From Nitrospirota bacterium (GTDB lineage: Bacteria; Nitrospirota; Nitrospiria; Nitrospirales; UBA8639): a DNA stretch of 35,308 nt. The DNA is taken from positions 1 to 35,308 of the forward strand of contig JAOTTP010000028.1 in NCBI GenBank assembly GCA_029864405.1, read 5' to 3'. The position numbers and the translations under genes were made by a program. The stretch's first letter is position 1. The number at the start of each line of letters is the position of its first letter. The notes beneath the pieces were generated by a model that did no database searches, was not told the DNA's origin, and saw only the letters and a list, made by a program, of their open reading frames with translations. Below, one piece after another: positions 1,357 through 16,321 of this stretch.

Positions 1357-3096
1357 TTACATCAAGGGTTCGCTGGTGAGGAGAGAAAAGCCACCGTGGT
1401 CCAGGACGACTGTCCAATCGGACATGGACTCGGGTAGTTGTCCGCGAAGCGGGGTTTGAATGATGGCCATTTTGCGGCCGGGAGCGGAAAGATGTTGAGG
1501 GAGATCTTCGTCATTCAGGTCGAGAAAATAGACTTTGCGTTTGGCATAAAAACTGAGGGATGGGCGTTTCCTGCCAATTTGAATCAATCGGTCATCTTGG
1601 CCTAAGTTATAGCCGGCGATGACAGCTAATTCCTGCGGGGGTCCAATGAAATACTGTTGGTAAATAGATAGTCCTCCTCGCGCGACCAATACCGTAAAGA
1701 TCAGCATCATGCCGCCTCCCACCCATAAGGCCAGATGGCGCTTGGTATCAGATCGCATGCACTGACGCATGAGCATGGTACCCACCACGATGACGAGGCC
1801 TACGAGCGACGGGAGCCAGGCCAGGTCCACGTGGACAGCGGCCGGGAATTCTTTGGCAATTTGCTTCATGAACAACTGAAAGACCGCCGGCAAAAACATC
1901 ATCGCGATGCCCAATAGGTATCCCACCCCGATGAGTATTCGGGTAGAAGCGGTTAATCCAACAGGGAAATCTTCTTTCAAAAATCGCTGCCACCAGACGG
2001 CAACCAGGACCGCTGCTGCCGGAAATGCCGGATAGATGTAATGCGGCAGACGCGTGGCCGAGAAGGTAAAGAACAATAGCAATCCCACCACCCAGAAGCT
2101 CAGGAAACACTCCAGATGTTGTTCCTGTGACGCAAGGCCTTGTCCCTGCCAGTAGGCTTTCGAACGTTTTAACGCGTGATACAACACGGAAGGGAGACAG
2201 GCACTCCATGGGAAAAATCCCACCAATACCACCGGAATATAAAAAAAGAGCGTCCCCCCATGACCTTCCATAGGATTCATGAAACGGCCGGTGGTATTCG
2301 CTTGTGCCGCGGCCCAATAGGCGTCTCCATGAATGTGAAACATCATCAAATACCAGGGAGCGGCCACCACCGTGACCAAGAGCATTCCAACAAGCGGGAA
2401 CCCCCGTTGCCAGAATGTTCCCCATTGCCGTGTGAGAGTGAGATACGGGATCACGCCCACCAGCGGAATGATGATACCCACTGGTCCCTTGACCAACATG
2501 CCGAATCCCATGGCCAGATAAAAGACGGCGAAGAGCCATCGCTTGGCCTGCTCATGATGCAACGCATGCCAAAAGCTATAGCCCGCCAGGGTGGTGAACA
2601 CGACCAACTCCGGATCGGTCAGCACCATCCGATTGATGCCCAAAAACTCCAGGTTCAGCAGCAACATGAACGAAGCCCAGATAGCCACCGTGGGGCCAGC
2701 CCACCTTCGAACGAACAGATATTGGAGCAACAGCAGGCAGAGACCGGACAAAGCCGAAGGCAGCCGCGCGGCAAATTCATTGATGCCAAACACGGTATAT
2801 GCCCCGCTGATGAGCCAATACACAAAGGCCGGTTTGGCATAACGAGGTTCATAGTTAAGGGTGGGGGAAATCCAATCGCCGGTTTCGAGCATTTCCCTGG
2901 CCGCTTCCGCATTGCTGCCCTCATCCCGATCCGTTAACCCGAGTGCGCCGAGATCCGGACCAAATAGCCATCCGCCGTCCACTCCCAGCAGCCAGGCGGC
3001 CAAGAGCAGCACACACACCACATGGAAAAGAGGAGAGTGCGTAATCGAAGATCGAGGAGAGGACGGAGAGAGGACTGGAGTGAGAGGGCTAGCCAC
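1357..3096 (-). CDS. GT39/ArnT-like polyprenyl-phosphate-sugar glycosyltransferase
   Basis: A 579-residue integral membrane protein of the PMT_2/ArnT type (GT39/GT83 family). These enzymes move a sugar from a polyprenyl-phosphate carrier onto an acceptor on the outer face of the inner membrane, for example lipid A or another glycan. The DRDEGSNAEAAREM stretch after the first hydrophobic segment carries the acidic pair expected in the first periplasmic loop. It is followed by the typical YAKPAFVYWL and AARLPSAL motifs and about a dozen hydrophobic segments. The start is GTG at 3094-3096, overlapping the upstream gene by 8 bases. The first 20 residues are a Ser/Pro/Thr-rich tail that may not be native. 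Third gene of the operon after GT2 and LAB_N, so the donor is probably the polyprenyl-phosphate sugar made by the GT2. The acceptor is unknown. Confidence 0.85.
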   Translation of the reverse strand: MASPLTPVLSPSSPRSSITHSPLFHVVCVLLLAAWLLGVDGGWLFGPDLGALGLTDRDEGSNAEAAREMLETGDWISPTLNYEPRYAKPAFVYWLISGAYTVFGINEFAARLPSALSGLCLLLLQYLFVRRWAGPTVAIWASFMLLLNLEFLGINRMVLTDPELVVFTTLAGYSFWHALHHEQAKRWLFAVFYLAMGFGMLVKGPVGIIIPLVGVIPYLTLTRQWGTFWQRGFPLVGMLLVTVVAAPWYLMMFHIHGDAYWAAAQANTTGRFMNPMEGHGGTLFFYIPVVLVGFFPWSACLPSVLYHALKRSKAYWQGQGLASQEQHLECFLSFWVVGLLLFFTFSATRLPHYIYPAFPAAAVLVAVWWQRFLKEDFPVGLTASTRILIGVGYLLGIAMMFLPAVFQLFMKQIAKEFPAAVHVDLAWLPSLVGLVIVVGTMLMRQCMRSDTKRHLALWVGGGMMLIFTVLVARGGLSIYQQYFIGPPQELAVIAGYNLGQDDRLIQIGRKRPSLSFYAKRKVYFLDLNDEDLPQHLSAPGRKMAIIQTPLRGQLPESMSDWTVVLDHGGFSLLTSEPLM

Positions 3097-3403
3097 TCAC
3101 GACTCGCTTATTGGCCTGATGCAGCAGCATGATATTGCGGATATACACCACGGTCCCGACGCTTTGGCCGGCCATGAATACCAGGTCGGCTATATGAATG
3201 GCATAGGCTAGCACAATCACACTGCCAACCAGGCTCATGTACCAGAACGACACGGGAATTTGGCTTTCCGCATTGCGTTCCGACACCAACCATTGCACCA
3301 GCCACCGTGAGAAAAAAATGCCTTGCCCCAGAAAACCAAATCCTATCCAGAGGAGTTCCTCAAACGACATAGCAAGGAGTACCTGTTTGAACGATTCGAA
3401 CAT
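3089..3403 (-). CDS. Stand-alone LAB_N (lipid A biosynthesis N-terminal domain) membrane protein
   Basis: About 104 residues with three hydrophobic segments. It carries the signature of the LAB_N domain (first found fused to some LpxB proteins): SRWLVQW, then IPVSFW, then a VFMAGQ...VYIRN ending. Stand-alone copies have no proven reaction. They commonly sit between a GT2 and an ArnT-like gene, as here, so a role in membrane-bound sugar-lipid synthesis or flipping is a reasonable inference. The ATG at 3401-3403 is chosen; a TTG two codons earlier (3409) is also possible. Neither has a good ribosome binding site. A GGGGCT/AGCCCC hairpin (3415-3428) lies directly upstream. The 3' end overlaps the GT39 gene. 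Confidence 0.8.
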   Translation of the reverse strand: MFESFKQVLLAMSFEELLWIGFGFLGQGIFFSRWLVQWLVSERNAESQIPVSFWYMSLVGSVIVLAYAIHIADLVFMAGQSVGTVVYIRNIMLLHQANKRVVSG

Positions 3404-3414
3404 ATTCAATAAGA

Positions 3415-3428
3415 GGGGCTAAAGCCCC
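3415..3428 (-). other. Small hairpin between GT2 and LAB_N genes
   Basis: A perfect 6-bp stem GGGGCT/AGCCCC with a 2-nt loop lies in the 109-bp gap between the GT2 stop and the LAB_N start, about a dozen bases before the start codon. There is no T-run, so it is not a clear terminator. It may be an RNA stability or processing element that sets the ratio of the two proteins. Confidence 0.4.
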
Positions 3429-3518
3429 ATAAGAGTTCCATCTACTTAGAACCCCACTGGTGCGTTGAAGGTTTGTCGTGCATGAATGGGTTCCAGCAAG
3501 ATGGGCACCACAAGGATC

Positions 3519-4280
3519 CTACGGCTCGGATTTTTCGGGTGGGTGGATGCCTTTCACGGTGTAGTTCAAACAGCGTTTCTGCATCCACCTGACTGCGAAG
3601 AGATCATACAGACCGGCAAAAAGCCTGTTGCCAATGCCGTATTTTGATGTCCCATGGGCTCTCGGAAAATGCTGGACGGGGACTTCGGTCACCGTAAACC
3701 CATACATTTTCGCCAGCGCCGGGAAAAACCGGTGCATGTTTTTAAATGGAGGAAGACGTTTGACCACGGCCTGCTTGAAGACCTTCATGGAACAGCCGGT
3801 ATCCGAAATGCCGTCATGCACGGCCCAATTGCGAACCTGATTGGCAATTCTTGACGACCATCGACGGACCAGATTGTCATGCCTGGCTTGTCGTCGCCCA
3901 CACACTAAATCATAGCGTTCTACGAATGGGAGAAGTTTGGCGAAATCATTCGGGTCATACTGCAGATCACCGTCCATCGTCGCAACAAGCTCTCCCCTGG
4001 CATGCCGAAAGCCCGCATCGAATGCCGCCGTTTGCCCATGGTTCCGGTCTAAATGAATCACCCGTATGGCAGAAGACTGAACGGCTAACTGATCCAGCAA
4101 GGGGCCACTCCCGTCAGAACTCCCATCATCCACAAACACGAGTTCAAACGCAGCGGATCCACTTTCAGGCCTGGACTCAAAAAACTTGAGCAATTGGCTC
4201 GCTAATAGCGGGAGGTTCTCCCGCTCATCTTTAATGGGAATGACAACGGAAATCCAATGGGGCGGCGGGTGGAGGCTCAT
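3519..4280 (-). CDS. GT2 family polyprenyl-phosphate glycosyltransferase (DPM1/ArnC-like)
   Basis: A 253-residue GT-A fold transferase. It has the N-terminal VVIPIKDERENL, the nucleotide-binding FVDDGSSDGS and the metal-binding MDGDLQYDP, followed by a TGCSMKVF stretch typical of dolichyl- or undecaprenyl-phosphate sugar synthases. It should transfer a sugar from a nucleotide donor to polyprenyl phosphate at the cytoplasmic face. Unlike ArnC or GtrB it has no C-terminal transmembrane pair, so it may rely on the neighbouring LAB_N protein or on amphipathic contacts for membrane association. The start is the ATG at 4278-4280 with no clear Shine-Dalgarno. First gene of the GT2-LAB_N-GT39 operon, with a good promoter 75-105 bp upstream. 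Sugar identity cannot be told from sequence. Confidence 0.88.
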   Translation of the reverse strand: MSLHPPPHWISVVIPIKDERENLPLLASQLLKFFESRPESGSAAFELVFVDDGSSDGSGPLLDQLAVQSSAIRVIHLDRNHGQTAAFDAGFRHARGELVATMDGDLQYDPNDFAKLLPFVERYDLVCGRRQARHDNLVRRWSSRIANQVRNWAVHDGISDTGCSMKVFKQAVVKRLPPFKNMHRFFPALAKMYGFTVTEVPVQHFPRAHGTSKYGIGNRLFAGLYDLFAVRWMQKRCLNYTVKGIHPPEKSEP

Positions 4281-4354
4281 GGATCGCGAAAACTATGCTA
4301 CAAGTTTCAACATTATGATGGGACACACGCTGCGGACTCTCCAACCCAGGGAAC

Positions 4355-4384
4355 ATTTTACTGAATATCTAAAAAATCGGTCAA
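4355..4384 (-). promoter_or_regulatory. Sigma70-type promoter for the GT2-LAB_N-GT39 operon
   Basis: On the minus strand TTGACC (4379-4384) and TAAAAT (4355-4360) are separated by 18 bp. This puts the transcription start near 4348 and a leader of about 70 nt before the GT2 start codon. Based on motif match only. Confidence 0.55.
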
Positions 4385-4464
4385 ACATCCCTTCATCACG
4401 AGCCGCTCTCCTCGACCTTCTGTGATCTCCTTGCTGCGCGCTCCAGTCATATCGTCACGGAAAG

Positions 4465-4493
4465 TTGACCACGGGAACAGCCGGTTGTAAGGT
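4465..4493 (+). promoter_or_regulatory. Sigma70-type promoter for the small protein gene at 4521
   Basis: TTGACC (4465-4470) and TAAGGT (4488-4493) with a 17-bp spacer lie just upstream of the strong ribosome binding site of the 4521 gene, predicting a start near 4500. It is divergent from the GT2 promoter on the other strand, with about 80 bp between the two -35 boxes. Confidence 0.55.
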
Positions 4494-4520
4494 GGGGGAC
4501 ATTATCAAGGAGGCACATTC

Positions 4521-4775
4521 ATGCAAGAAGACATTTTGCAAGCGTATCTGGAAATAGAGCAAGCCATGCAGCGCTATTCCCTGTTATTACAGGAGCACGT
4601 GAGCCATCTCCAAACACAAACGGACGAGGAATCCAAAAACCGATTCCATAGAATGAAGGCTGGCTCAAAGGCCATGAGAGACAGCAGTCAGATTTATCTC
4701 TCTTATGCGAAATATGTGGCGTATGGGATGCCCGAGGGTGAGGAGCTGGCTGAAGAAGAGGACTTACAAGCCTAG
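4521..4775 (+). CDS. Small acidic helical protein of unknown function
   Basis: An 84-residue soluble protein that I do not recognise. It is predicted to be almost entirely helical, with heptad-like spacing in the first half (EIEQAMQRYSLLLQEHVSHL), and ends in a very acidic tail (EGEELAEEEDLQA). There is no signal peptide, membrane segment or cysteine pair. It is a genuine gene: AAGGAGG lies at a good distance from the ATG, and a well-formed promoter lies just upstream. It stands alone between the divergent glycosylation operon and the convergent tRNA-Pro. A small coiled-coil partner or adaptor protein is possible, but no function can be assigned. Confidence 0.75.
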   Translation: MQEDILQAYLEIEQAMQRYSLLLQEHVSHLQTQTDEESKNRFHRMKAGSKAMRDSSQIYLSYAKYVAYGMPEGEELAEEEDLQA

Positions 4776-4857
4776 CGAGCCTTCGTACTGCCCAACATCA
4801 GCTCCCTTCTGAAGATACAGAGGAGGCGAATTGACCCGCCTTGCCGGCAGAAAAGAA

Positions 4858-4934
<77 letters not shown>

Positions 4935-4984
4935 ACATTGTTCTGACCAGTTGTATTCCCATCAAATCGTCATTGGCCGAATAC

Positions 4985-5335
4985 CTAGACCGTTGCTCGA
5001 CCCAAGATCTTCAGAATACCTTGCAGTTCCACCTTGGCTTTTTCCACACGGTCTTTGGGGACCTGAACGGCTTTTCCTTCTCGTTTTTTGCGATACCAAT
5101 ACCGCTTCAGACCCGCAATCGTATACCCTTCATCATAGAGCATCCGTTTTATTTCAAAGACGGTTTCAATGTCGCCTTTCGAATAGACCCGATGTTTGCC
5201 CTGACTTTTCTTCGGTTTGAGAAAAATGAATTCTGACTCCCAAAACCGTAGGACATACGCCGGAAGATTCGTCAAATCGGCGACTTCCCCTATTTTATAA
5301 AAGTCCTTCTCCTCGTGTTTGAGTCCAACCCCCAT
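4985..5335 (-). CDS. MerR-family transcriptional regulator
   Basis: About 116 residues. An N-terminal winged helix-turn-helix of the MerR type is visible in [21 protein letters not shown], followed by [19 protein letters not shown] and [11 protein letters not shown], and a short helical C-terminus. There is no ligand-binding domain and no cysteine set for metals or redox, so the effector, if any, is unknown. The ATG at 5333-5335 is preferred because GGTGA lies 8 bases upstream; a GTG at 5347 would add four residues. It sits directly downstream of ihfA, with 67 bp between them, and upstream of tRNA-Pro. The same neighbours are seen in many Proteobacteria, where this MerR protein is also uncharacterised. 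Probably co-transcribed with ihfA. Confidence 0.85.
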
Positions 5336-5402
5336 AGCTGCAATCACCCCACGGTGTGTCTAGCAAGAGAATGAACGAGACCGATAGCGGAATTCTTTCC
5401 CG

Positions 5403-5678
5403 TCAAGAATTAACATATTTCTTAAAGAGTTGGCTTGGTCGGAAGGTGACCACTCGTCTGGGCGTAATGGCAATTTCTTCTCCCGTTCTCGGATTCCTGC
5501 CTTTGCGCTCTCCCTTGTTCCGGACAACAAAGTTCCCAAACCCGGCAATTTTGACGACTTCCCCCCGTTGAAGCATGGACTTGATCAAATCCAACACGTG
5601 CTCCACCATTTCCATTGAGTCGGTCTTTTGGATCGCTGCCGTCTCTGTAATGATTTCGGCAATGTCAGCCTTCCGCAT
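5403..5678 (-). CDS. ihfA: Integration host factor alpha-type subunit (HU/IHF family)
   Basis: A 91-residue DNA-bending protein. It has the N-terminal helical MRKADIAEIITE region, the conserved KIAGFGNFVVR strand, and the DNA-intercalating arm GRNPRTGEEIAITPRRVVTF. The arm sequence and the ihfA-merR-tRNA-Pro context favour the IHF alpha label over HU, although in this phylum the protein may act as a homodimer. The start ATG at 5676-5678 has AAGGGGG upstream. In Proteobacteria this gene follows pheT; here it follows the amino-acid operon end by 124 bp and has its own promoter. Confidence 0.9.
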   Translation of the reverse strand: MRKADIAEIITETAAIQKTDSMEMVEHVLDLIKSMLQRGEVVKIAGFGNFVVRNKGERKGRNPRTGEEIAITPRRVVTFRPSQLFKKYVNS

Positions 5679-5749
5679 AAATCAGAACCCCCTTACCAGT
5701 GGTTTCGAACACCGTTATTACGGATTGTGAGTTCACGCCTCTGACCCTT

Positions 5750-5790
5750 GTTGCTGGCAGCAACGTAACGGGCAACGCAGATGATGTCAA
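5750..5790 (-). promoter_or_regulatory. Promoter with overlapping dyad for ihfA-merR
   Basis: On the minus strand TTGACA (5785-5790) and TACGTT (5762-5767) with a 17-bp spacer form a near-consensus promoter, start near 5755. A GTTGCT/AGCAAC inverted repeat with a 3-nt centre (5750-5764) overlaps the -10 box and the start site, as an operator would. Autoregulation by IHF or MerR is possible but not shown. Confidence 0.55.
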
Positions 5791-5802
5791 GAACAGACCT
5801 CT

Positions 5803-7452
5803 TCAGTTGATTCCCCTTTGTGGGCCTGTGATCGGAGAGGCCGCCATCACCCCTGCGGCTTTCTCCTTCATGAGCTTATATTCAATACTGTCGGCCAGGG
5901 CCTGCCAACTGGCTTCAATGATGTTTTCCGATACCCCCACCGTTCCCCATTTCTCTTTGTGATCACCGGACTCGATCAGGACTCGCACGCGAGAACCGGT
6001 TCCATGTCGCCCGGTCAACACACGGACCTTATAGTCCAGAAGCTTCATTTCCTGTAACTGTGGATAAAAATGTTCCAACGCTTTGCGAAGGGCATGATCG
6101 AGAGCATTCACCGGCCCATCACCGACCGCCGCGGTATGTTCAACGACTTCCCCGACTTTGACCATAATCGTGGCCTCGGAAATAGGGTCCTCATTGGTTT
6201 TCCGTTTCTCAACAATGATGCGGCACCCCAGGAGTTCAAACGATGGCGTATACGTCCCCATCGCCTTCCGCACTAACAATTCAAAGGACCCTTCCGCTCC
6301 CTCAAATTGGTAGCCTTCATATTCCAAGGTTTTGAGGGAATCCAGTAATTCGAGCACCTTGGGATTATCCTGAGGAAGATCCAGTCCGAAGGTTTCCATC
6401 TTTCCAAACACGGCACTTCGGCCACTGCTGTCGGAAATCAACACACGGCGATGGTTGCCGACGACATCAGGATTCACATGTTCATAGGTGAGCGGGTTTT
6501 TTTGCACCGCATGAATATGCACCCCCCCTTTATGAGCAAACGCGGTATCGCCCACATAGGGCTGCCGTTTATTGGGAGTCAAATTTGCCATCTCGGCCAC
6601 AAAATGAGAAATGGTGCGGAGGTGTGCTAATCGTCCATCTCCCAGGGCTGTTCGCCCCATTTTCAATTCTAAATTGGCCATGATGGAACACAGGTTGGCA
6701 TTCCCACACCGTTCGCCAATGCCATTAATCGTTCCCTGGACCTGGATCGCTCCGGCTTGCACGGCTATCAACGAATTGGCGACGCCCATCTCCGCGTCAT
6801 TATGCGCGTGAATGCCAAACGGGACAGAACAGTTCTGACGGGCCGCCGCAAAGATCTCACCAATATCCCAGGGCATGGTCCCGCCATTGGTATCGCACAA
6901 TACGATCCGCTCCGCCCCGGCTTCTGCCGCAGCCTGAATGGTTTTCATGGCGTAGTCGGGATTCATTTTATATCCGTCGAAAAAGTGTTCGGCATCGTAA
7001 AACACCTGCCGCCCCCTCGACCGGAGATACGCGATAGAATCGGCAATCAGCTCTAAATTGATGGCCAACGTCGTTTCCAACGCTTCCGTCACATGTAGGG
7101 TCCAACTTTTCCCAAAGATGGTGACAATTTCTGTTTCTGCGGATAAGAGCGCCTCCAACGTCGGATCGGCCATTGCCGTATTTTTGGCTTTTCGCGTCGA
7201 ACCAAACGCCACAATTTTGGCGTGCTGCAATGGAGTCGATTTCATGACTTGAAAGAACTCAATATCCTTCGGGTTGGCTCCCGGCCACCCTCCTTCAATG
7301 AAATGGACCCCCAGCTCATCTAATTTGAGGGCGATACGAACCTTATCCTCGACCGAGAAGCTGACATCTTCGGCCTGAGCCCCATCCCGGAGGGTTGTAT
7401 CGTAGATTTCAATGATCGGAAATTGAGAATTCATGTCACGCATAGGCATCAT
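5803..7452 (-). CDS. cimA: (R)-citramalate synthase
   Basis: A 549-residue member of the LeuA/HCS family. It condenses acetyl-CoA and pyruvate to citramalate, the first step of the threonine-independent route to 2-oxobutyrate and isoleucine. DTTLRDGAQ at 18-26 and the metal-binding HAHND at 215-219 are intact. The GGWPGANPKD stretch and YDAEHFFDGYK are typical of the long CimA subtype (TIGR00977 type) rather than LeuA. A C-terminal LeuA-type regulatory domain follows residue 400, so feedback control by isoleucine is likely. Last gene of the amino-acid operon, 23 bp after lysC. The ATG at 7452 is used; further ATGs follow at codons 2, 4 and 7. A homocitrate synthase is less likely, given the motifs and the neighbours. 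Confidence 0.9.
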   Translation of the reverse strand: MMPMRDMNSQFPIIEIYDTTLRDGAQAEDVSFSVEDKVRIALKLDELGVHFIEGGWPGANPKDIEFFQVMKSTPLQHAKIVAFGSTRKAKNTAMADPTLEALLSAETEIVTIFGKSWTLHVTEALETTLAINLELIADSIAYLRSRGRQVFYDAEHFFDGYKMNPDYAMKTIQAAAEAGAERIVLCDTNGGTMPWDIGEIFAAARQNCSVPFGIHAHNDAEMGVANSLIAVQAGAIQVQGTINGIGERCGNANLCSIMANLELKMGRTALGDGRLAHLRTISHFVAEMANLTPNKRQPYVGDTAFAHKGGVHIHAVQKNPLTYEHVNPDVVGNHRRVLISDSSGRSAVFGKMETFGLDLPQDNPKVLELLDSLKTLEYEGYQFEGAEGSFELLVRKAMGTYTPSFELLGCRIIVEKRKTNEDPISEATIMVKVGEVVEHTAAVGDGPVNALDHALRKALEHFYPQLQEMKLLDYKVRVLTGRHGTGSRVRVLIESGDHKEKWGTVGVSENIIEASWQALADSIEYKLMKEKAAGVMAASPITGPQRGIN

Positions 7453-7475: not shown

Positions 7476-8711
7476 CTAGGCCTTTTTGGCCCCCGGAGGC
7501 GTTTCTAATTCAAATTCCTGGTGCAAGGCCCGAACAGCTAATTCCATGTATTTTTCTTCCACCACACAAGAGATCTTAATTTCCGAGGTACTGATCATCA
7601 TGATATTAATACCCTCCCGTGAGAGCGTCTGAAACATTCTGGCGGCGACACCGGAATGCGAACGCATCCCCACTCCCACTAATGAGACTTTGGCAATGGC
7701 TTCGTTTACCTCTACCGTCCGTGCTCCCACTGATTTGGCAATATCTCTGACGAGACTCATGCCCCGGGTCAGATCGGCTCTCGGCACGGTAAAGGAAATG
7801 TCCGTCAGGGAATCCTGACTCACATTTTGAATAATCATATCCACATTGATGGCGGCGTCGGCAATGGAGCAGAACAATGTGGCGGCAATCCCAGGTTGAT
7901 CCGGGACCCCGACCACCGTGACCTTGGCTTGATTCCGATCGCCCGTGACTCCGGAGACTAAGACTTGTTCCATATCGACATCCTCTTTTACCACGCGGGT
8001 TCCAGGCCCGTCTTGAAAACTGGATCGCACTTCCACGGGCACCTGATATTTGGCAGCTAACTCCACCGAACGAGACTGTAAGACTTTAGCCCCCAGACTC
8101 GCTAACTCTAACATTTCCTCATAGGAGATTTTATCCAACCGTCTCGCGCCGGGCACAATATTGGGATCGGCCGTGTATACACCATCCACATCGGTATAAA
8201 TAAAGCAGGTATCGGCCTTCAGCGCCGCGGCCAAGACCACGGCCGTCAGATCGGAGCCCCCACGCCCTAACGTCGTCACATCAGACGCGGCGTTAATTCC
8301 TTGAAACCCGGCCACAATGGGAACAATCCCATCACGCAACGCTCCCAGGACCCGGTCCGTATCGACCCGGGAGACTCGAGCTTTGGTATGCACACTATCG
8401 GTGACAATCCCAACTTGACGTCCCGTAAAGGATTGCGCCTTGATCCCAAGACTTTTGAGGGTCATCGCCATCAGCGCAATCGTGACTCGCTCTCCGGATG
8501 ACAGCAACACATCAAGTTCCCGATCATCCGGGTCAATGCTCAAAGTCTTGGCCATTTTCATGAGGCGATCCGTTTCCCCACTCATCGCAGACAACACCAC
8601 GACCAGCTCATGCCCGGCCAGGCAGGTCTGCTCAATAAGCCGAGCTACGTTTTGGATTCGTTCCAGGCTCCCCACTGACGTGCCGCCGAATTTTTGAATA
8701 TACCGCGCCAT
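7476..8711 (-). CDS. lysC: Aspartate kinase, monofunctional
   Basis: A 411-residue enzyme that phosphorylates aspartate, the committed step to lysine, threonine and methionine. KFGGTSVG at 7-14 and TTLGRGGSD at 146-154 mark the kinase domain. [14 protein letters not shown] is the nucleotide-site loop. Two ACT domains occupy about residues 265-405 and predict feedback inhibition by lysine and/or threonine. The length matches single-domain-kinase LysC proteins. It follows the ApgM-like gene by only 5 bp and precedes cimA by 23 bp, so translation is probably coupled. The start is the ATG at 8709-8711. Confidence 0.95.
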
Positions 8712-8716
8712 AGGAT

Positions 8717-9952
8717 TTAGTTCTTGCCCGCAACCCGCTCAAGCAGCTTTGTGGCATCACGGAGTGGACGGTTGGCCACCTCTCGTTCATTCAATCTCAC
8801 CGCATGATCTTCGGGTTTGCCTTTGCGCCCTTCACACACCAGATATGGGGATATAGCCGACACTCCATCCTCCTGCCGGTGCGGACTTGGGGTACATAGT
8901 ACGACGATCCGGAGGGAATCGTTTTTTTCAACAGACTGATGCATAGCTCCGATCACCTGTTCGTCCACCCGCTGAAGATATTCCACTAATTGTGACGGTG
9001 GCACCGCCTGTCCATCCTTCAAGCCCCAGGCGTAAAAGGGAATATGCAGACAGACCAGGTCGTGCGTTTCCAGCACAGGAGACGTTCTGTTGGCTAATTC
9101 CTGCAACCAGGCGACATCTCCCCCTCCCACATTTTCCACCTTCACCGTCTGGAGTCCAGCGGCCATTCCAACACCGACATACGGCCCATCAGGTGAAATA
9201 ACCATACCTTTGACTGGCCACCGTTCTTTTAGATGAGGCAATTCCACAGCCTTGCCGGGGCCCCACAACCATAAACAATTGGCCGGCTTCAGCCCGGCAT
9301 CAAGGCGCTCTTTATTGACAGGGTGATGGCAAAGGATCGCCCTAGAGGCCGCCATGAGTTCACGTAAAATTTGCGATCCGTCGCCGGTTGGCAGAAACGC
9401 CTCGATCGACTGCCCCAGAGCCTCGTGTGGGTTACGACAGGCCACTTTCCCACTCGCGCCCACCCAGACCATCAGATGCCGGTGATGGCTGCCCATGTAA
9501 AAATGAATATTTTCAGATATCAATTGTTCATTGATGGCATCAATGAGTTCTCGGGCCTCTTCAGTTTCGATTCCGCCGCCTAAGGGGTCATCCATGAATA
9601 ACTGGGGCCCAAATTTTTTCCCATCCCCCCAACCGTCCTGCCCACGGAGAGTCACCAAATGACACAGATAGGCGACATCATGGGCATCCAGGACAACCTC
9701 CAACCCTCCTGCCTCAAAGGCACCAGGACCGGTATACCATTTGTGTGGATGGTATCCTAATAAAGCAAGCAGGGCCATTTCCCCGCAAAAGGGACGGGTT
9801 TCTCGGGGAACTCCTAAACGCCCCAGTTCACCATGCCCCGCCAATTCATCCAGGTGCGGTGTCCGAGCCGATTGCAAAACGGTCTGGTTTCCTAATTCTT
9901 GAAATGACTGTCCCGTCAAACCATCGACGTGAATCACGATCGTTTTTCGCAC
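8717..9952 (-). CDS. ApgM / proposed-homoserine-kinase family protein with lost catalytic residues
   Basis: A 411-residue protein that aligns along its whole length with the archaeal-type cofactor-independent phosphoglycerate mutase family, especially the branch proposed as homoserine kinase (TIGR02535) because it clusters with hom and thrC. Shared stretches include VDGLTG..FQELG (9-21), [10 protein letters not shown] (29-38), [12 protein letters not shown] (64-75), HHRHLMVW (156-163), [10 protein letters not shown] (225-234) and KGMVISPDG (248-256). The first metal Asp (D10) remains. Judged from remembered family motifs, the nucleophile Ser site reads CGEMA (56-60, Ser to Gly), the PDEASH metal motif reads PFYAWGL (305-311), and the PDHPTP motif reads CTPSPH (353-358). 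It should therefore not work by the known two-metal phospho-Ser mechanism. The start is GTG at 9950-9952. It sits between thrC and lysC, and no thrB is visible in the window. Confidence 0.8.
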
Positions 9953-10026: not shown

Positions 10027-11091
10027 TTATGTATTTGTTAATTGCGCTCTGACCGCCTCATGGGTGGCAGGAACGGTGACCGGTCGATACGAGACCGAGA
10101 TGGCCGTATCCGGGTCTTTTAACCCATGTCCGGTTAAGGTACACACAATGACTCCCTCTTTTGGCAACAACCCGGCGCGATTCATTTTGTCAATTCCTGC
10201 GAGAGATGCAGCGGAAGCGGGCTCGCAAAAGACCCCTTCTTCACTCGCCACCATTTGATAAGCCCGAATAATTTCTTCGTCAGTCACCATATCCAGATGT
10301 CCCTGTGATTCCTCTAATGCTTTCAGGGCAAAATTCCAACTGGCGGGATTCCCAATCCGAATGGCTGAGGCAATAGTTTTCGGTGAATCCACCACATGAC
10401 CTCTGACCATGGGAGCCGCTCCTTCCGCTTGAAACCCGAACATTCGAGGCAACCCTTGTGTTTGTCCGGCTTCTTGGTACTCCCGATATCCTCGCCAATA
10501 CGCAGTAATATTCCCGGCGTTCCCCACCGGCAGGGCATGAATGACCGGGGCATACCCCAACTGATCACAAATTTCCATGGCCGCCGTTTTTTGGCCTTCT
10601 ATACGAAACGGGTTAATTGAATTGACTAACTCAATCGCCGTTTCTTGACACAAATCCTTCACGATCGTTAAAGCCTGATCGAAGTTCCCATCGATTTGAA
10701 TGACCTGGGCACCATGCATGAGGGCCTGGGTCAGCTTACCCAATGCAATATTCCCTGCCGGAATGACGACATACACCGGCAAACCCGCTTTCGCCCCATA
10801 GGCCGCTGCCGAAGCGGAGGTATTGCCGGTCGAGGCACACATGAGTCCCCTGGCCTTGTTTTCCACGGCTTTAGAGACCGCCATGGTCATCCCCCGGTCC
10901 TTAAAGGAACCGGTTGGATTGGCCCCTTCTATCTTCAGATACAGACCCAGGCCAGGACAAATTTTCCCGGCTAAGCGCTTTGCTGGAATGAGTGGTGTAT
11001 TCCCCTCCTGTAGTGACACGATCGGGGTCTGCTCTCCCACCGGGAGAAATTTCCGATATTCCTCGATAATGCCACGCCAAGGAATCATCAT
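10027..11091 (-). CDS. thrC: Threonine synthase
   Basis: A 354-residue PLP enzyme that converts O-phosphohomoserine to threonine. The PLP lysine is in SFKDRG (62-67, K64). CASTGNTSAS (85-94) binds the cofactor phosphate and QEGNTPL (28-34) is the N-terminal signature. The length fits the short, bacterial/archaeal class without SAM regulation. Two adjacent ATGs (11091 and 11088) are possible; AAGGGGGA lies 6 bases before the first. It follows hom by 38 bp and precedes the ApgM-like gene by 74 bp, the widest gap in the operon apart from its start. It needs O-phosphohomoserine as substrate, so some homoserine kinase must exist. Confidence 0.95.
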   Translation of the reverse strand: MMIPWRGIIEEYRKFLPVGEQTPIVSLQEGNTPLIPAKRLAGKICPGLGLYLKIEGANPTGSFKDRGMTMAVSKAVENKARGLMCASTGNTSASAAAYGAKAGLPVYVVIPAGNIALGKLTQALMHGAQVIQIDGNFDQALTIVKDLCQETAIELVNSINPFRIEGQKTAAMEICDQLGYAPVIHALPVGNAGNITAYWRGYREYQEAGQTQGLPRMFGFQAEGAAPMVRGHVVDSPKTIASAIRIGNPASWNFALKALEESQGHLDMVTDEEIIRAYQMVASEEGVFCEPASAASLAGIDKMNRAGLLPKEGVIVCTLTGHGLKDPDTAISVSYRPVTVPATHEAVRAQLTNT

Positions 11092-11129: not shown

Positions 11130-12440
11130 TTATTCCACCCCTTCCATACGGAGTAACGTCGTCGGCTCTGACACCATGGGCAGTGCATTAATCTCCTGGA
11201 GTGCCGATTGAACCGCTCGCTCTACCGAACGATGCGTCAAGATGACCAACGGTACCGTTTGTCCTTCCTTTCGCCCTTTTTGAAGGACAGAGGAGATGCT
11301 GATCCCACGCTGCCCGAGAATCCCTGATATGGCCGACAGGACGCCGGGTTGATCCTTGACCATGCACCGCAAATAATACCGGCTTTCAATGTCGTCCATC
11401 GGTCTAATGGCAATGGGCACACGCGATTCCCATTGGAATGAGGTCACAGGAACCCGTCCGGCAACCCCGGCTAAGCGATTTCGTGCCAGGTCGATAATAT
11501 CTCCCACGACGGCACTGGCCGTTGGAAGCGACCCGGCCCCTTTGCCGTAGAGAACTACATCTCCAACAGCATCACCAATCAGGTGAATGGCATTGTAGAC
11601 CCCATTCACTTGTGCAATGGGAGATCCGGCCGGCACCAGGGCGGGATGCACTCGTGCCTCAATGGCATTCTCTTGAAGTTTGGCGATTCCCAACAATTTA
11701 ATGGTAAACCCGAGTTCACGGGCAAACTCGATATCCACCGTCGAAATATGAGAAATTCCCTCAGTAAAGATGCCTCGCATGGGCACGGGAGTTCCATACG
11801 CAAGATTGACCATGATGGCCAATTTGTGAGCCGCATCAACGCCATCAACATCCAGTGACGGATCCGCTTCGGCATACCCTTCCCGTTTAGCTTCCTGTAA
11901 AATTTCGTCAAAATCACGGTGCTCGTTGGTCATCCGGGTCAGAATATAATTCGACGTACCATTCATAATCCCCGTAATGGACAACATCCGGTTCGCAGCC
12001 AACCCTTCGGTCAGCGATCGAATGATGGGAATGCCTCCCCCGACGCTCGCTTCAAACCCGAGATCAACGCCGGCCTTGAATGCCGCCTCAAAGATCTCTT
12101 CGCCATGATCGGCCAACAACGCTTTATTCGCCGTCACCACGCATTTTTTGCGTTCAAGCGCCTGAAGAATAAACCGTTTGGCAGGTTCATGCCCGCCAAT
12201 CAATTCCACGACAATATCAATCGCAGAATCATCCAGAATGTCCCGGACATCCGTCGTGAGCACCCCTTGTGGCACCGAAACCCCGCGATCTGTTGTGATA
12301 TCCAAGTCCGCAATCCGCACAAGCGACACGGGAACCCCGACACGTTTCGCGATGAGGTCGGCATTCCCTTGGAGAATCTTCACGACTCCTGTTCCCACGG
12401 TGCCGAACCCGATTAACCCAACCTGGACAGCATTTCGCAT
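11130..12440 (-). CDS. hom: Homoserine dehydrogenase
   Basis: A 436-residue enzyme that reduces aspartate semialdehyde to homoserine. GLIGFGTVGTGV (8-19) is the Rossmann nucleotide loop. The central catalytic domain has GGGIPIIRSL, NGTSNYILT and EADPSLDVDGVDAAHKL, which holds the catalytic lysine region. A C-terminal ACT domain (about 355-430) points to threonine feedback. The start ATG (12438-12440) shares one base with the aminotransferase stop codon, so the two are translationally coupled. Confidence 0.95.
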   Translation of the reverse strand: MRNAVQVGLIGFGTVGTGVVKILQGNADLIAKRVGVPVSLVRIADLDITTDRGVSVPQGVLTTDVRDILDDSAIDIVVELIGGHEPAKRFILQALERKKCVVTANKALLADHGEEIFEAAFKAGVDLGFEASVGGGIPIIRSLTEGLAANRMLSITGIMNGTSNYILTRMTNEHRDFDEILQEAKREGYAEADPSLDVDGVDAAHKLAIMVNLAYGTPVPMRGIFTEGISHISTVDIEFARELGFTIKLLGIAKLQENAIEARVHPALVPAGSPIAQVNGVYNAIHLIGDAVGDVVLYGKGAGSLPTASAVVGDIIDLARNRLAGVAGRVPVTSFQWESRVPIAIRPMDDIESRYYLRCMVKDQPGVLSAISGILGQRGISISSVLQKGRKEGQTVPLVILTHRSVERAVQSALQEINALPMVSEPTTLLRMEGVE

Positions 12441-13624
12441 TACAAATCCCCGTCAAATTTTAAGGCCTGACGGATTCCTCGAACCGCCTGAAAAATCCGG
12501 TGTTCATTTTCGACTAAGGCGAAGCGAACATAGTCATTGCCGCCTTCGCCAAACCCTATTCCAGGTGAAACCGCCACTTTGGCATCCCGTAACAGTAACT
12601 TGGAAAACTCCAATGATCCCATTCCAAGATAGGGTTGTGGGATTTTTGCCCAAGCAAACATGGTCGCGCGAGGATAATCGATCGGCCAACCAATGCGGTT
12701 GAGTCCACGGACCAGGGCATTGCGCCGTCGCTCATATCGCCCCACAATTTCTTTCACGCAATCCTGCGGACCGTTCAAGGCAATAATACTGGCAATTTGA
12801 ATGGGCTGGAACATGCCATAATCCAGATAACTTTTGATCTTGGTCAACGCGCCGATGACTTCACGATTTCCGACGCAAAATCCTACACGCCAACCCGGCA
12901 TGTTATAGCTCTTCGAGAGGGAGTAAAATTCCACGCCAATTTGCTTGGCCTCCGGAATTTGAAGAAGGCTGGGGGCCTTGTATCCATCGAAGACGATATC
13001 GGCATACGCCAAATCATGAATGACCCAGACCTGATGTTCCAGAGCAAACTCCACCACCTTTTTAAAAAACTCCAGATCAACGACGCGAGTGGTCGGATTG
13101 TGCGGAAAACTGATGATCAACGCTCGAGGAGCCGGTTGCGTTTGCTTGAAGGCCTTTTTCAGATTTTCAAAAAAATCCGAATCAGGGCCTAGTTCAACCC
13201 CGCGCACTTCGCCACCCGCGATAATCACACTGTACATATGAATCGGATACGTGGGGGTCGGCGCCAGGACCACATCACCCGGTCCCACCATGGCTAGGGC
13301 CAAATGCGCCAAGCCTTCTTTCACCCCCAAGGTCACAATCGCTTCCGTCTCAGGATCAAGACTAACCTCATAATTTCGTTGATACCAATCACAGATCGCA
13401 TGGCGCAATTTCGTAATACCGCGTGAGGCCGAATAGCGATGATTCCGCCCGAGTCGCGCCGTCTCAATCAATTTGTCCACGATATGACGAGGTGTGGGCT
13501 GGTCGGGGTTACCCATGCCCAAATCAATAATATCTTCTCCCCGCTTCCGTGCTTGGAGTTTTAACTCCTGGACCTGGGAGAAGACGTATCCTGGCAGTCG
13601 TTGAATTCGGTAAAAAGGTTCCAT
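12440..13624 (-). CDS. Class I/II PLP aminotransferase, AlaC-like
   Basis: A 394-residue fold-type I aminotransferase. The PLP lysine is K238 in [24 protein letters not shown] (34-45) and HNPTT (175-179) are the usual substrate and cofactor contacts. The sequence resembles AlaC/YfdZ-type glutamate-pyruvate transaminases, which often precede hom in bacteria. It may also act on aspartate or methionine-pathway keto acids, so the substrate is left open. First gene of the amino-acid operon, with a one-base overlap to hom. The start ATG (13622-13624) has no clear Shine-Dalgarno in its 74-nt leader, which also contains the palindrome at 13679-13692. Confidence 0.88.
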
Positions 13625-13876: not shown

Positions 13877-14590
13877 ATGGCACGACTCGGCGTGAACATT
13901 GACCATGTGGCGACCCTTCGCCAATCTCGTGGTGGACATGAACCAGACCCCATTATGGCGGCTTCGTTGGCACACCTTGCCGGGGCCGATGGCATTGTGG
14001 TGCACCTCCGGGAGGACCGGCGGCATATTCAGGATCGGGATCTGACCATTTTGCGTGAAATCGTGCAGACTCATCTCAACTTAGAAATGGCCGCGGAAGA
14101 CTCAGTGGCCAAAATTGCCCTGAACATTAAACCCGATCTGGTGACCCTCGTACCTGAACGGCGCCAGGAACTCACCACAGAGGGTGGGCTGGACGTGATC
14201 GAGCACCGGGACCGTATCCAGGCCATGGTGCAATTACTCCATGAAGGAGGCATTCCCGTCAGTCTGTTTATTGATCCTGATGTCAATCAACTTCGCGCCG
14301 CCCACAAGGTTCAAGCAGACTGGGTGGAACTCCATACCGGTCGGTACGCCAATACCCGCCGTCAACAAGAAGAAGATGCTGAATTTGACGCGTTGGTTCA
14401 AACGGCCAAACTTGCGTCGAAATTAGGATTGCACGTGAGTGCGGGACATGGGCTGAATTATCGAAATACTAAACGGCTGACCAGCATAGCTGAAATTGAA
14501 GAATTCAACATTGGTCATAGCATTATCGCTCAGGCGGTGTTTGTCGGACTTGAACGGGCAGTCCGTGACATGAAACACCTCCTGGGTTAG
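13877..14590 (+). CDS. pdxJ: Pyridoxine 5'-phosphate synthase
   Basis: A 237-residue TIM-barrel enzyme that makes pyridoxine 5'-phosphate from 3-amino-2-oxopropyl phosphate and deoxyxylulose 5-phosphate, the last ring-forming step of the DXP-dependent B6 route. The signature [10 protein letters not shown] (7-16) and HLREDRRH (43-50) are intact, as are ELHTGRYA and the C-terminal [10 protein letters not shown] phosphate site. The ATG at 13877 has AAAGGA 7 bases upstream. It is divergent from the amino-acid operon, which uses the cofactor in its aminotransferase and threonine synthase. In many bacteria acpS follows pdxJ; here the next gene is the NAD(P)HX repair enzyme after 174 bp. Confidence 0.96.
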
Positions 14591-14764: not shown

Positions 14765-16321
14765 ATGTGGGTAGTGACCGCTGCACAAATGCAAACGCTT
14801 GATCGGCGTACGATCCAAGAAGCCAAGGTTTCAGGTCTCACCTTGATGGAACGGGCTGGCAGCGGCGTGGTGACTCACCTCATAGAAGCCTGGGGTCTAC
14901 CTAAAGGGAAAAAGGTCGTCATCCTCTGTGGCAAGGGCAATAATGGTGGAGATGGTCTTGTTGTTGCCCGGCTTATGGCAAAAAAAGGGGCAAAGCTGAA
15001 GGTTGTCTTGATGGCTCCGCTCAAGGAACTAAGTCCCGATGCGAAGATTATGTATCGGCGGCTTAGCAAGATCATCAGACCATCCCTGTTTACCGTCAAC
15101 CCCTCGGAGGAATCGCTGCATTCCCTTACCCAAGACGCCGACCTTCTTGTCGATGCGCTCCTAGGTACAGGCCTCTCTTCTTCGGTTCGCATGCCCTATT
15201 CCTTCGCCATTGAAGCCATGAATGCCTCACGGGCCTTTACCGTGGCCATAGATATTCCGTCCGGATTGGATAGCAATACCGGGGCTACATTGGGAGTCGC
15301 TGTTCAGGCCGATCTCACGGTGACGTTCGGATGCCCGAAACTCGGCCTATATCTGGATTCAGCCATCGACAAAGTGGGAAACATCGAAGTCGTCGATATT
15401 GGTATTCCCCAGGACTTTGTGTTGGATCTGAACCCCCACATTCACCTTCTGTCACAAGAGATGGTTCGCTCACTCATTCCGCCTCGCCCTCCATCCTCGC
15501 ATAAGGGGACCTTTGGACATGCAGGGATTGTGGCTGGTTCACCAGGGAAAACTGGGGCTCCGGCCATGGCCGGCCTAGGGGCGCTTCGTATTGGAACGGG
15601 GCTGGTGACCGTGGCCACTCCTCAGAGCGTTTCCCCCATCTTGGAGTCAAAGCTTCTAGAAGTGATGACAGAGCCCATGCCGGAATCGTCCCAACACCTG
15701 CTGGGAATGGAGGCCTATCCGGTCCTTTTTGCTTTCGCAGCCACAAAATCGGCTCTGGCATTCGGACCTGGTATGGGCATCTCTCCTGAAACAACCGAAC
15801 TCTTGCGTCTTCTCCTTCCTCAACTGGAGGCACCCTGCGTTCTGGATGCCGATGCCCTCAATGGATTAGCGCAACACTGCCAAATATTCTCATCAATGAA
15901 ACGACCGCCTATCCTGACGCCTCATCCTGGAGAAATGGCCAGACTCCTTGCAGCCTCTTCTTCCAAACAGGTCAATGAAGATCGCATCGGCGTCAGCAGA
16001 CAGTTTGCCATGCAACATCAGGTGATCTTGGTACTGAAAGGCGCTCGGACCGTCATCGCCGAACCCGAGGGACAGGTGGCAATTTGTCCAACAGGCAATC
16101 CTGGAATGGCTTCCGCAGGAATGGGAGATGTGCTGACCGGGATGATTGCCGGTTTGTTGGCTCAGGGGCTGAGCGCGTGGGATGCGGCCAGAGCGGGCGT
16201 CTATCTGCATGGGCTGGCAGGCGATCTGGCCGCCGCCACAATCGGTGAACAAGGGCTAATCGCCGGGGATGTGATTACGGCCATACCCCATGCGCTGACC
16301 CATACTCTGTCTCTCCAGTAG
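14765..16321 (+). CDS. nnrD: Bifunctional NAD(P)HX epimerase / dehydratase
   Basis: A 518-residue fusion that repairs hydrated NADH and NADPH. The N-terminal YjeF_N epimerase domain (about 1-215) has the conserved CGKGNNGGDG at 55-64 and IDIPSGLDSNTG. The C-terminal ribokinase-like YjeF_C dehydratase domain (about 225-515) has TPHPGEMARL and the nucleotide-binding GNPGMASAGMGDVLTG at 444-459. The length and domain order are those of the usual bacterial fusion (nnrE+nnrD). The start ATG has no strong Shine-Dalgarno; the 174 bp upstream contain no other credible gene. Probably co-transcribed with tsaE and mutS. Confidence 0.93.
   Translation: MWVVTAAQMQTLDRRTIQEAKVSGLTLMERAGSGVVTHLIEAWGLPKGKKVVILCGKGNNGGDGLVVARLMAKKGAKLKVVLMAPLKELSPDAKIMYRRLSKIIRPSLFTVNPSEESLHSLTQDADLLVDALLGTGLSSSVRMPYSFAIEAMNASRAFTVAIDIPSGLDSNTGATLGVAVQADLTVTFGCPKLGLYLDSAIDKVGNIEVVDIGIPQDFVLDLNPHIHLLSQEMVRSLIPPRPPSSHKGTFGHAGIVAGSPGKTGAPAMAGLGALRIGTGLVTVATPQSVSPILESKLLEVMTEPMPESSQHLLGMEAYPVLFAFAATKSALAFGPGMGISPETTELLRLLLPQLEAPCVLDADALNGLAQHCQIFSSMKRPPILTPHPGEMARLLAASSSKQVNEDRIGVSRQFAMQHQVILVLKGARTVIAEPEGQVAICPTGNPGMASAGMGDVLTGMIAGLLAQGLSAWDAARAGVYLHGLAGDLAAATIGEQGLIAGDVITAIPHALTHTLSLQ

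Follow-up and report, generated by a model that had tools for sequence, protein, structure and literature searches.

Threonine operon and its degenerate gene

The window, which is the whole stretch of 35,308 nucleotides that we analysed, carries a threonine operon on its minus strand. The gene under study is buried in this operon:

12440–13624, minus strand: AlaC-like aminotransferase, start of the conserved block (best match NF006033, 639.5 bits, just below the cut-off of 647)
11130–12440, minus strand: hom, homoserine dehydrogenase (NF004976, 548.2 bits; cut-off 205)
10027–11091, minus strand: thrC, threonine synthase (TIGR00260, 309.4 bits; cut-off 167.1)
8717–9952, minus strand: degenerate ApgM/TIGR02535-like gene, 411 amino acids, GTG start, matched in 48 of 59 genomes (counting the window's own)
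7476–8711, minus strand: lysC, aspartate kinase (NF005155, 609.9 bits; cut-off 346)
5803–7452, minus strand: cimA, citramalate synthase (TIGR00977, 771.6 bits; cut-off 450)

The open reading frame starts with GTG at 9952 and its stop codon ends at 8717, on the minus strand, which corrects the strand of the original prediction. The gene follows thrC after 74 bp and is separated by 5 bp from the ATG of lysC at 8711. The operon order is AlaC-like aminotransferase, hom, thrC, degenerate gene, lysC, cimA. The aminotransferase also comes first in the relatives, which have the same gene order. An intact frame, a 5-bp gap to lysC and a fitting position between thrC and lysC had been predicted. All are borne out: the 411-residue frame has no internal stop, and the intact TIGR02535 genes of the phylum also adjoin thrC or lysC.

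Downstream of cimA lies a tRNA-Pro (ggg) at 4858–4934, which adjoins an open reading frame that is MerR-like by eye (4985–5347). On the other side, positions 14765–16321 encode a YjeF_N/Carb_kinase fusion (NAD(P)HX repair), past a PdxJ-like frame (13877–14590, by eye) divergent from the threonine operon. The layout in the relatives appears similar by eye.

Family membership

The protein resembles the ApgM and TIGR02535 families along nearly its full length, yet it falls under each curated full-length cut-off. It scored 251.4 bits with TIGR00306 (cut-off 320), 245.1 bits with NF003242 (cut-off 426) and 241.7 bits with TIGR02535, the "proposed homoserine kinase" family (cut-off 446.3); by score it is not a member of the last. 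The sole profile passed is that of the PF10143 lid domain (124 bits, cut-off 21.5). The Metalloenzyme core, PF01676, stays below its cut-off (19.7 vs 24.3 bits). The nearest solved structures are those of archaeal-type ApgM proteins, with PDB ID 2zkt in first place (E = 4.7e-28). The full-length kinship claimed originally thus stands, with scores below the cut-offs. An AlphaFold2 model built from seven close sequences had a mean pLDDT of 36 and was left unused.

Loss of the metal and nucleophile site

The iPGM of C. elegans binds two metals through seven residues: Asp, His and His for one, and Asp, Ser (the nucleophile), Asp and His for the other, as given in the available text of PMC5382265. 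We carried this ligand set over to the TIGR02535 positions by motif and alignment. The alignment comprised 47 full-length proteins of the order, the window's included, and 30 canonical TIGR02535 proteins from its phylum. The latter are the best-scoring 30 of 56 proteins over the TIGR02535 cut-off, a choice that favours intact ones. From the 48 matching genomes, three fragments (G011, G042, G045) and a pseudogene (G030) were left out of the 47 rows, and three further genomes of the order (G139, G150, G155) were added. Families are labelled f1 to f4 and genera g1 to g19; the window's family is f1. The relevant parts of the window protein, as placed by the alignment and the lid profile, are:

9923–9925, minus strand: Asp10, the sole metal/nucleophile residue kept of seven
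9782–9784, minus strand: Gly57, in place of the Ser nucleophile
9314–9841, minus strand: PF10143 lid domain, residues 38–213, the better conserved part of the protein
9476–9481, minus strand: Arg158-His159 of the YRHLM-type motif (window numbering), kept in all 27 f1 proteins
9008–9031, minus strand: residues 308–315, lost PDExxH-type metal motif (A308, Q315)
8864–8893, minus strand: residues 354–363, lost DH pair and third-His ligands (T354, P355, G363)

The seven positions read D10, G57, A308, Q315, T354, P355 and G363, where the canonical proteins have D, S, D, H, D, H and H. The window protein therefore keeps one of the seven residues of the two-metal site and its serine nucleophile. This is the catalytic loss, with D10 left, that had been predicted from family motifs, and alignment with 30 intact TIGR02535 proteins confirms it. 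All seven residues are present in 30/30 canonical proteins (the best 30 of 56) and in none of the 47 proteins of the order.

The loss is old and graded over the order, and it is not confined to the window's genome. The f2 proteins (n = 6) keep five or six of the seven residues; Asn replaces the Asp of the DH pair in all six, and the Ser nucleophile position is Gly or Thr in four. In f3 (n = 14) two to five are kept, with an uncertain alignment of the last His (a gap in eight proteins). The f1 proteins (n = 27) retain none to three. All 17 aligned proteins of the genus, including the window's, keep the first Asp only. When three f2 proteins were scanned, two scored over the TIGR02535 cut-off and the third just missed it, which, together with the five or six residues kept, suggests that the f2 proteins may still be active. 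The f2 proteins (L157, at 4222–6027 of G050; L151, L167, L168, L169 and L170) resemble a half-way stage of decay.

Two findings would have spoken against this loss, namely the same residues at shifted positions or close relatives with intact motifs. Neither was found among the aligned proteins. Shifted motifs are ruled out, the residue preceding G57 being variably C, S, W, F, A or T in members of the genus. The f1 alignment also showed no newly conserved His, Asp or Cys from which another metal site could arise, and Glu42, Glu85 and Glu142 are its only derived acidic residues.

Relation to threonine-operon proteins

The degenerate proteins are related to the threonine-operon proteins both by neighbourhood and by tree. 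Among the canonical TIGR02535 genes, 29 of 30 are flanked by thrC and/or lysC at no more than 1.5 kb, and nine by both; the flanks read are shorter at contig ends, and the one exception (L045) has neither neighbour on its short stretch. In the f2 and f3 genomes that were read, the block has the same genes as the window's. In a tree of 56 rows, which omits half of the canonical proteins and 13 proteins of the order with near relatives in the set, the threonine-operon proteins group together in a clade apart from the other ApgM type (support 100/100). Within it, f1 and f3 form one clade (100/97). The branching among f2, the canonical proteins and the f1 and f3 clade is not settled, and long branches are present.

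A search of the 59 genomes with TIGR00306 found a second full-length ApgM relative in G009 and G011 only, and it is of another type. A second, intact ApgM, raised in the original prediction, was thereby rejected as a general substitute. Further short TIGR00306 matches in f2 genomes, mostly in frames of 520–631 residues, were taken unscanned as the longer GpmI type. The two extra genes in the genus are L229 (G009:C1:1139525-1140772) and L230 (G011:C395:1835-2962). By eye, the one in G009 keeps DEPGH- and ADHATP-like motifs and is missing the first Asp and the GSD motif.

Presence and loss of the gene

We searched 59 genomes, namely the window's own and others of its genus, family and order. The gene has a match in 48 and carries internal stops in one of these (G030). 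Nine genomes are without it (G020; G022, G029, G032, G035; G038, G041, G044, G047). In all nine, thrC and lysC are adjacent, with 49–185 bp between the aligned ends, and five queries at E 1e-3 found no trace of the gene. The block alaC-hom-thrC-lysC-cimA is complete without the gene in seven of the nine; the contig ends before hom in G041 and before cimA in G047. The gene-less genomes thus retain thrC in 9/9 and hom in 8/9 cases. Two more genomes without a match (G001, G012) do not enter the loss count, since no assembled threonine operon was found in them. A tree built from Hom, ThrC, LysC and CimA resolves the losses into at least four events (f4, g2, g4 and G030).

The gene is dispensable: nine genomes whose stretch from thrC to lysC was read do without it, and a tenth has only a pseudogene. 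The claim that it is fixed in the threonine operon does not hold for the order. Three f4 genomes without an ApgM relative have, between lysC and cimA, an extra open reading frame of 315–328 residues that begins with a signal-like stretch (L144, 6673–7659; L145, 2878–3825; L146, 6977–7948).

Retained lid and selection

Eight residues (canonical numbering) are invariant in 27/27 f1 proteins: Arg150, His151, His202, Asn205, Arg208, Asn217, Trp220 and His295. We also compared whole segments, counting a canonical column as invariant when at least 29 of 30 proteins agree and as kept when at least 90% of the f1 proteins have the same residue. By this count, the N-terminal strand of f1 keeps 8 of its 14 invariant columns, the lid 32 of 67, the hinge 9 of 23 and the C-terminal core 5 of 49.

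dN/dS was calculated by NG86 for 14 close pairs, one of which is saturated and two more of which have dS > 1.5. These are simple pairwise estimates, and the pairs are not independent because they share sequences and history. For the seven finite f1 pairs, dN/dS is 0.07–0.26 over the whole gene, 0.05–0.19 over residues 1–265 and 0.10–0.49 over the remainder. The values for hom, thrC, lysC and cimA in the same pairs (some genes only in part) are 0–0.11. The C-terminal part has the higher value in 12 of 13 finite pairs from all families. In the intact canonical family it is higher in 15 of the 25 pairs listed; dN/dS there is 0.04–0.13, except for two distant pairs at 0.27 and 0.36, and one very close pair also combines a low N-terminal with a higher C-terminal value. 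This comparison indicates much the same constraint on the lid half as the intact enzyme has, and a weaker, though still present, constraint on the catalytic core. The degenerate protein also changes more quickly than the proteins encoded beside it in the operon (83% identity to G018 vs 93–99%). With dN/dS well below 1, the gene is maintained by purifying selection, as the intact frame had suggested. A known enzyme family, lost catalytic residues and purifying selection on the gene together define a pseudoenzyme, and all three are found here.

Search for another homoserine kinase

Nitrospira grow without added amino acids. thrC was found over its cut-off in 57 of the 59 genomes. Neither the GHMP-type thrB (TIGR00191) nor thrB_alt (TIGR00938) was over its cut-off in any of the 59. 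By motif, 28 of 31 GHMP hits resemble IspE or a heptose kinase. Ten hits, among them the three without a motif, were scanned: seven pass the IspE cut-off, and the other three have HddA as their best match but stay below its cut-off. IspE is over cut-off in the gene-less genomes G022, G032, G035 and G041. A GHMP-type thrB elsewhere in these genomes, another possibility raised originally, was thus rejected. An HddA-like heptose kinase (346–347 residues; L038, L079, L093) with weak thrB likeness occurs in members of genus g1 and in G053.

Shikimate kinase has a match in 51/59 genomes and two matches in 11/59, the second mostly weak; one extra hit reaches 105 bits, in G044. Because the extra hits are patchy, a second shikimate kinase was rejected as a general replacement.

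APH-family matches occur in 56/59 genomes, including all nine without the ApgM relative. Some of these places also give weak thrB_alt matches (18.6–43.9 bits in 10 genomes; cut-off 255.9). In the window's genome, the APH protein has AmgK as its best match (152.4 of 550 bits, under cut-off), and its gene adjoins a MurU-like gene (188.3 of 250 bits, under cut-off). A MurU-like start was recognised by eye in nine of ten APH neighbourhoods read, the exception being G053. The AmgK likeness and the MurU-like neighbour point to cell-wall recycling, and the APH-family kinase was rejected as the homoserine kinase.

As a control, we searched 118 genomes of the phylum. Of these, 25 have a thrB match over cut-off, 56 a TIGR02535 match over cut-off, and one (G065) both. 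Outside the order, 80 of 93 genomes have thrB or a canonical TIGR02535 protein; inside it, none of 25 do, these 25 being from f1 and f3 only. The 13 outside genomes with neither are mostly incomplete or fragmented, although G061 and G064 are 97–98% complete. The kinase gap is thus not peculiar to Nitrospirales.

The window's genome (2.9 Mb, 186 contigs) is 66% complete, so its own gene absences weigh little and the argument rests on the relatives, which include the single-contig genomes G018, G029, G035 and G053. That a homoserine kinase appears to be missing is an argument from absence, in which four known types were looked for.

Interpretation

The two-metal phosphotransfer centre is gone, and the window protein is thus very probably unable to make O-phosphohomoserine by the mechanism of the alkaline phosphatase superfamily, in which a phosphoserine forms on two metals. 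We consider the gene to encode a maintained pseudoenzyme derived from the TIGR02535 threonine-operon protein, with a non-catalytic role for the lid and another enzyme phosphorylating homoserine; we put the probability of this reading at about 0.6. Homoserine phosphorylation would have passed early in the order to another, so far unrecognised enzyme. The absence of known kinases and the order of decay support such a replacement. This transfer would have freed the catalytic core to decay, and the lid domain may have kept a non-catalytic job, to which the selection on it points. Most likely, the lid would bind homoserine, phosphohomoserine or a partner (ThrC, LysC or Hom), and so tune or organise the pathway. 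The original prediction named a regulator of homoserine flux and a scaffold among the options, and the retained lid and relaxed core fit either. A more specific version is that a fifth kind of homoserine kinase took over, and that the displaced ApgM-like enzyme became a non-catalytic sensor or scaffold whose lid binds homoserine or phosphohomoserine and whose target is ThrC, LysC or Hom; we offer this tentatively.

Other explanations were weighed against these results. An ordinary active enzyme could seem to lack its motifs through misassembly or a sequencing error, and the window's assembly is indeed fragmented and incomplete. However, the same losses occur in all 16 other aligned members of the genus, including the single-contig genomes G018 and G009. 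An error is excluded for practical purposes, since none of the 47 aligned proteins of the order keeps all seven residues and the loss is graded from f2 to f1. A fading relic, in which the kinase activity was replaced long ago and a functionless gene is on its way out, would explain the absence from f4, g2 and g4 (nine genomes), the stops in G030, the lower identity to G018 and the relaxed C-terminal core. A functionless gene should, however, carry stops at these depths, and only G030 of 48 matching genomes has them. In the f1 pairs dN/dS is also only 0.07–0.26, and the 0.05–0.19 of residues 1–265 is about that of the intact enzyme; the lid residues are invariant in every f1 protein. We therefore think a relic unlikely, though it is the strongest of the alternatives weighed here.

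The protein might still be the homoserine kinase without its metal pair or serine, by direct transfer in the lid or with residues supplied by a partner. The adjoining thrC, the retained lid residues and the lack of any recognised homoserine kinase in these genomes would agree with that. Against it, the gene-less genomes with adjacent thrC and lysC likewise have no recognised thrB, and f1 has gained the three derived glutamates but no new conserved His, Asp or Cys that could form another site. A kinase with a new mechanism, as originally proposed, is disfavoured as the cell's only homoserine kinase by those same gene-less genomes, which keep thrC and hom; we consider it improbable. An AmgK-like, weak shikimate-kinase-like or other promiscuous kinase could instead make phosphohomoserine, leaving the ApgM relative with an unrelated duty. 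APH matches are present in 56/59 genomes, all nine gene-less ones included, and weak thrB_alt hits occur in ten. Yet the window's APH protein resembles AmgK, under cut-off, beside a MurU-like gene, as expected for cell-wall recycling, and two shikimate-kinase-like matches are found in 11/59 genomes only. Such a kinase seems more improbable still.

Comparison with known systems

The window protein shares with TIGR02535, named ThrB2 on genome context (PMC9026213, as far as its text was available), the thrC/lysC neighbourhood (29/30 canonical genes), the clade and the lid motifs. It differs in having lost six of the seven residues and in its score (241.7 vs 446.3 bits). The archaeal-type ApgM proteins (TIGR00306; PDB IDs: 2zkt, 3idd, 3kd8) are homologous, 2zkt being the best solved relative. 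The window protein differs from these by the loss of the nucleophile and of six of the seven residues overall, by a score below the TIGR00306 cut-off, and by its place in the tree apart from the phylum's other ApgM type. HisZ is a catalytically dead HisRS relative that serves as the regulatory subunit of HisG. By analogy, the window protein may likewise be an enzyme fold kept without its chemistry in an amino-acid pathway. HisZ differs in having a known partner and a known effect.

The available text of PMC7311316 reports that Bacteroides BT2402, a TIGR02535 protein, is needed for growth without threonine and did not rescue an E. coli thrB mutant. Phosphohomoserine synthesis by intact TIGR02535 proteins is thus unproven there, and the activity lost in Nitrospirales is only presumed. 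The same text gives homoserine kinase as a low-confidence step in 29 of 148 prototrophs, 15 of the 29 having TIGR02535. It is one of the most frequent steps in amino-acid synthesis for which no gene accounts, and TIGR02535 is a candidate for the kinase, not an established one. That an unrelated family can replace a homoserine kinase has a precedent in the shikimate-kinase-like DvMF_0971 of Desulfovibrio vulgaris, as described in the portion of PMC5764234 available. Nitrospirales differ in having no general second shikimate-kinase-like protein. Our literature search found no report of a degenerate TIGR02535 protein, nor of a Nitrospira homoserine kinase.

Nitrospirales offer a natural experiment, in which the same operon holds a TIGR02535-type protein that is nearly intact, half-dead, dead but kept, or absent. 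If hom and thrC work in all four states, the TIGR02535-type protein is not the sole route to phosphohomoserine, and a screen of these genomes should reveal the real kinase. The order also provides a pseudoenzyme whose decay is traceable stepwise along a tree. Both a missing enzyme and a possible new job of the old one are now testable.

Many of the 59 genomes also encode a second ThrC-like protein over the thrC cut-off. In the four loci read (L153, positions 1582–6939, in G018; L154, L155 and L156), this protein has 411–440 residues and was recognised as ThrC by blastp. By eye, its cluster seems to contain sulphur-carrier, MoeB/ThiF-like, CysM-like and JAMM-like genes. The second ThrC may use phosphohomoserine or phosphoserine together with a protein thiocarboxylate to give homocysteine or cysteine.
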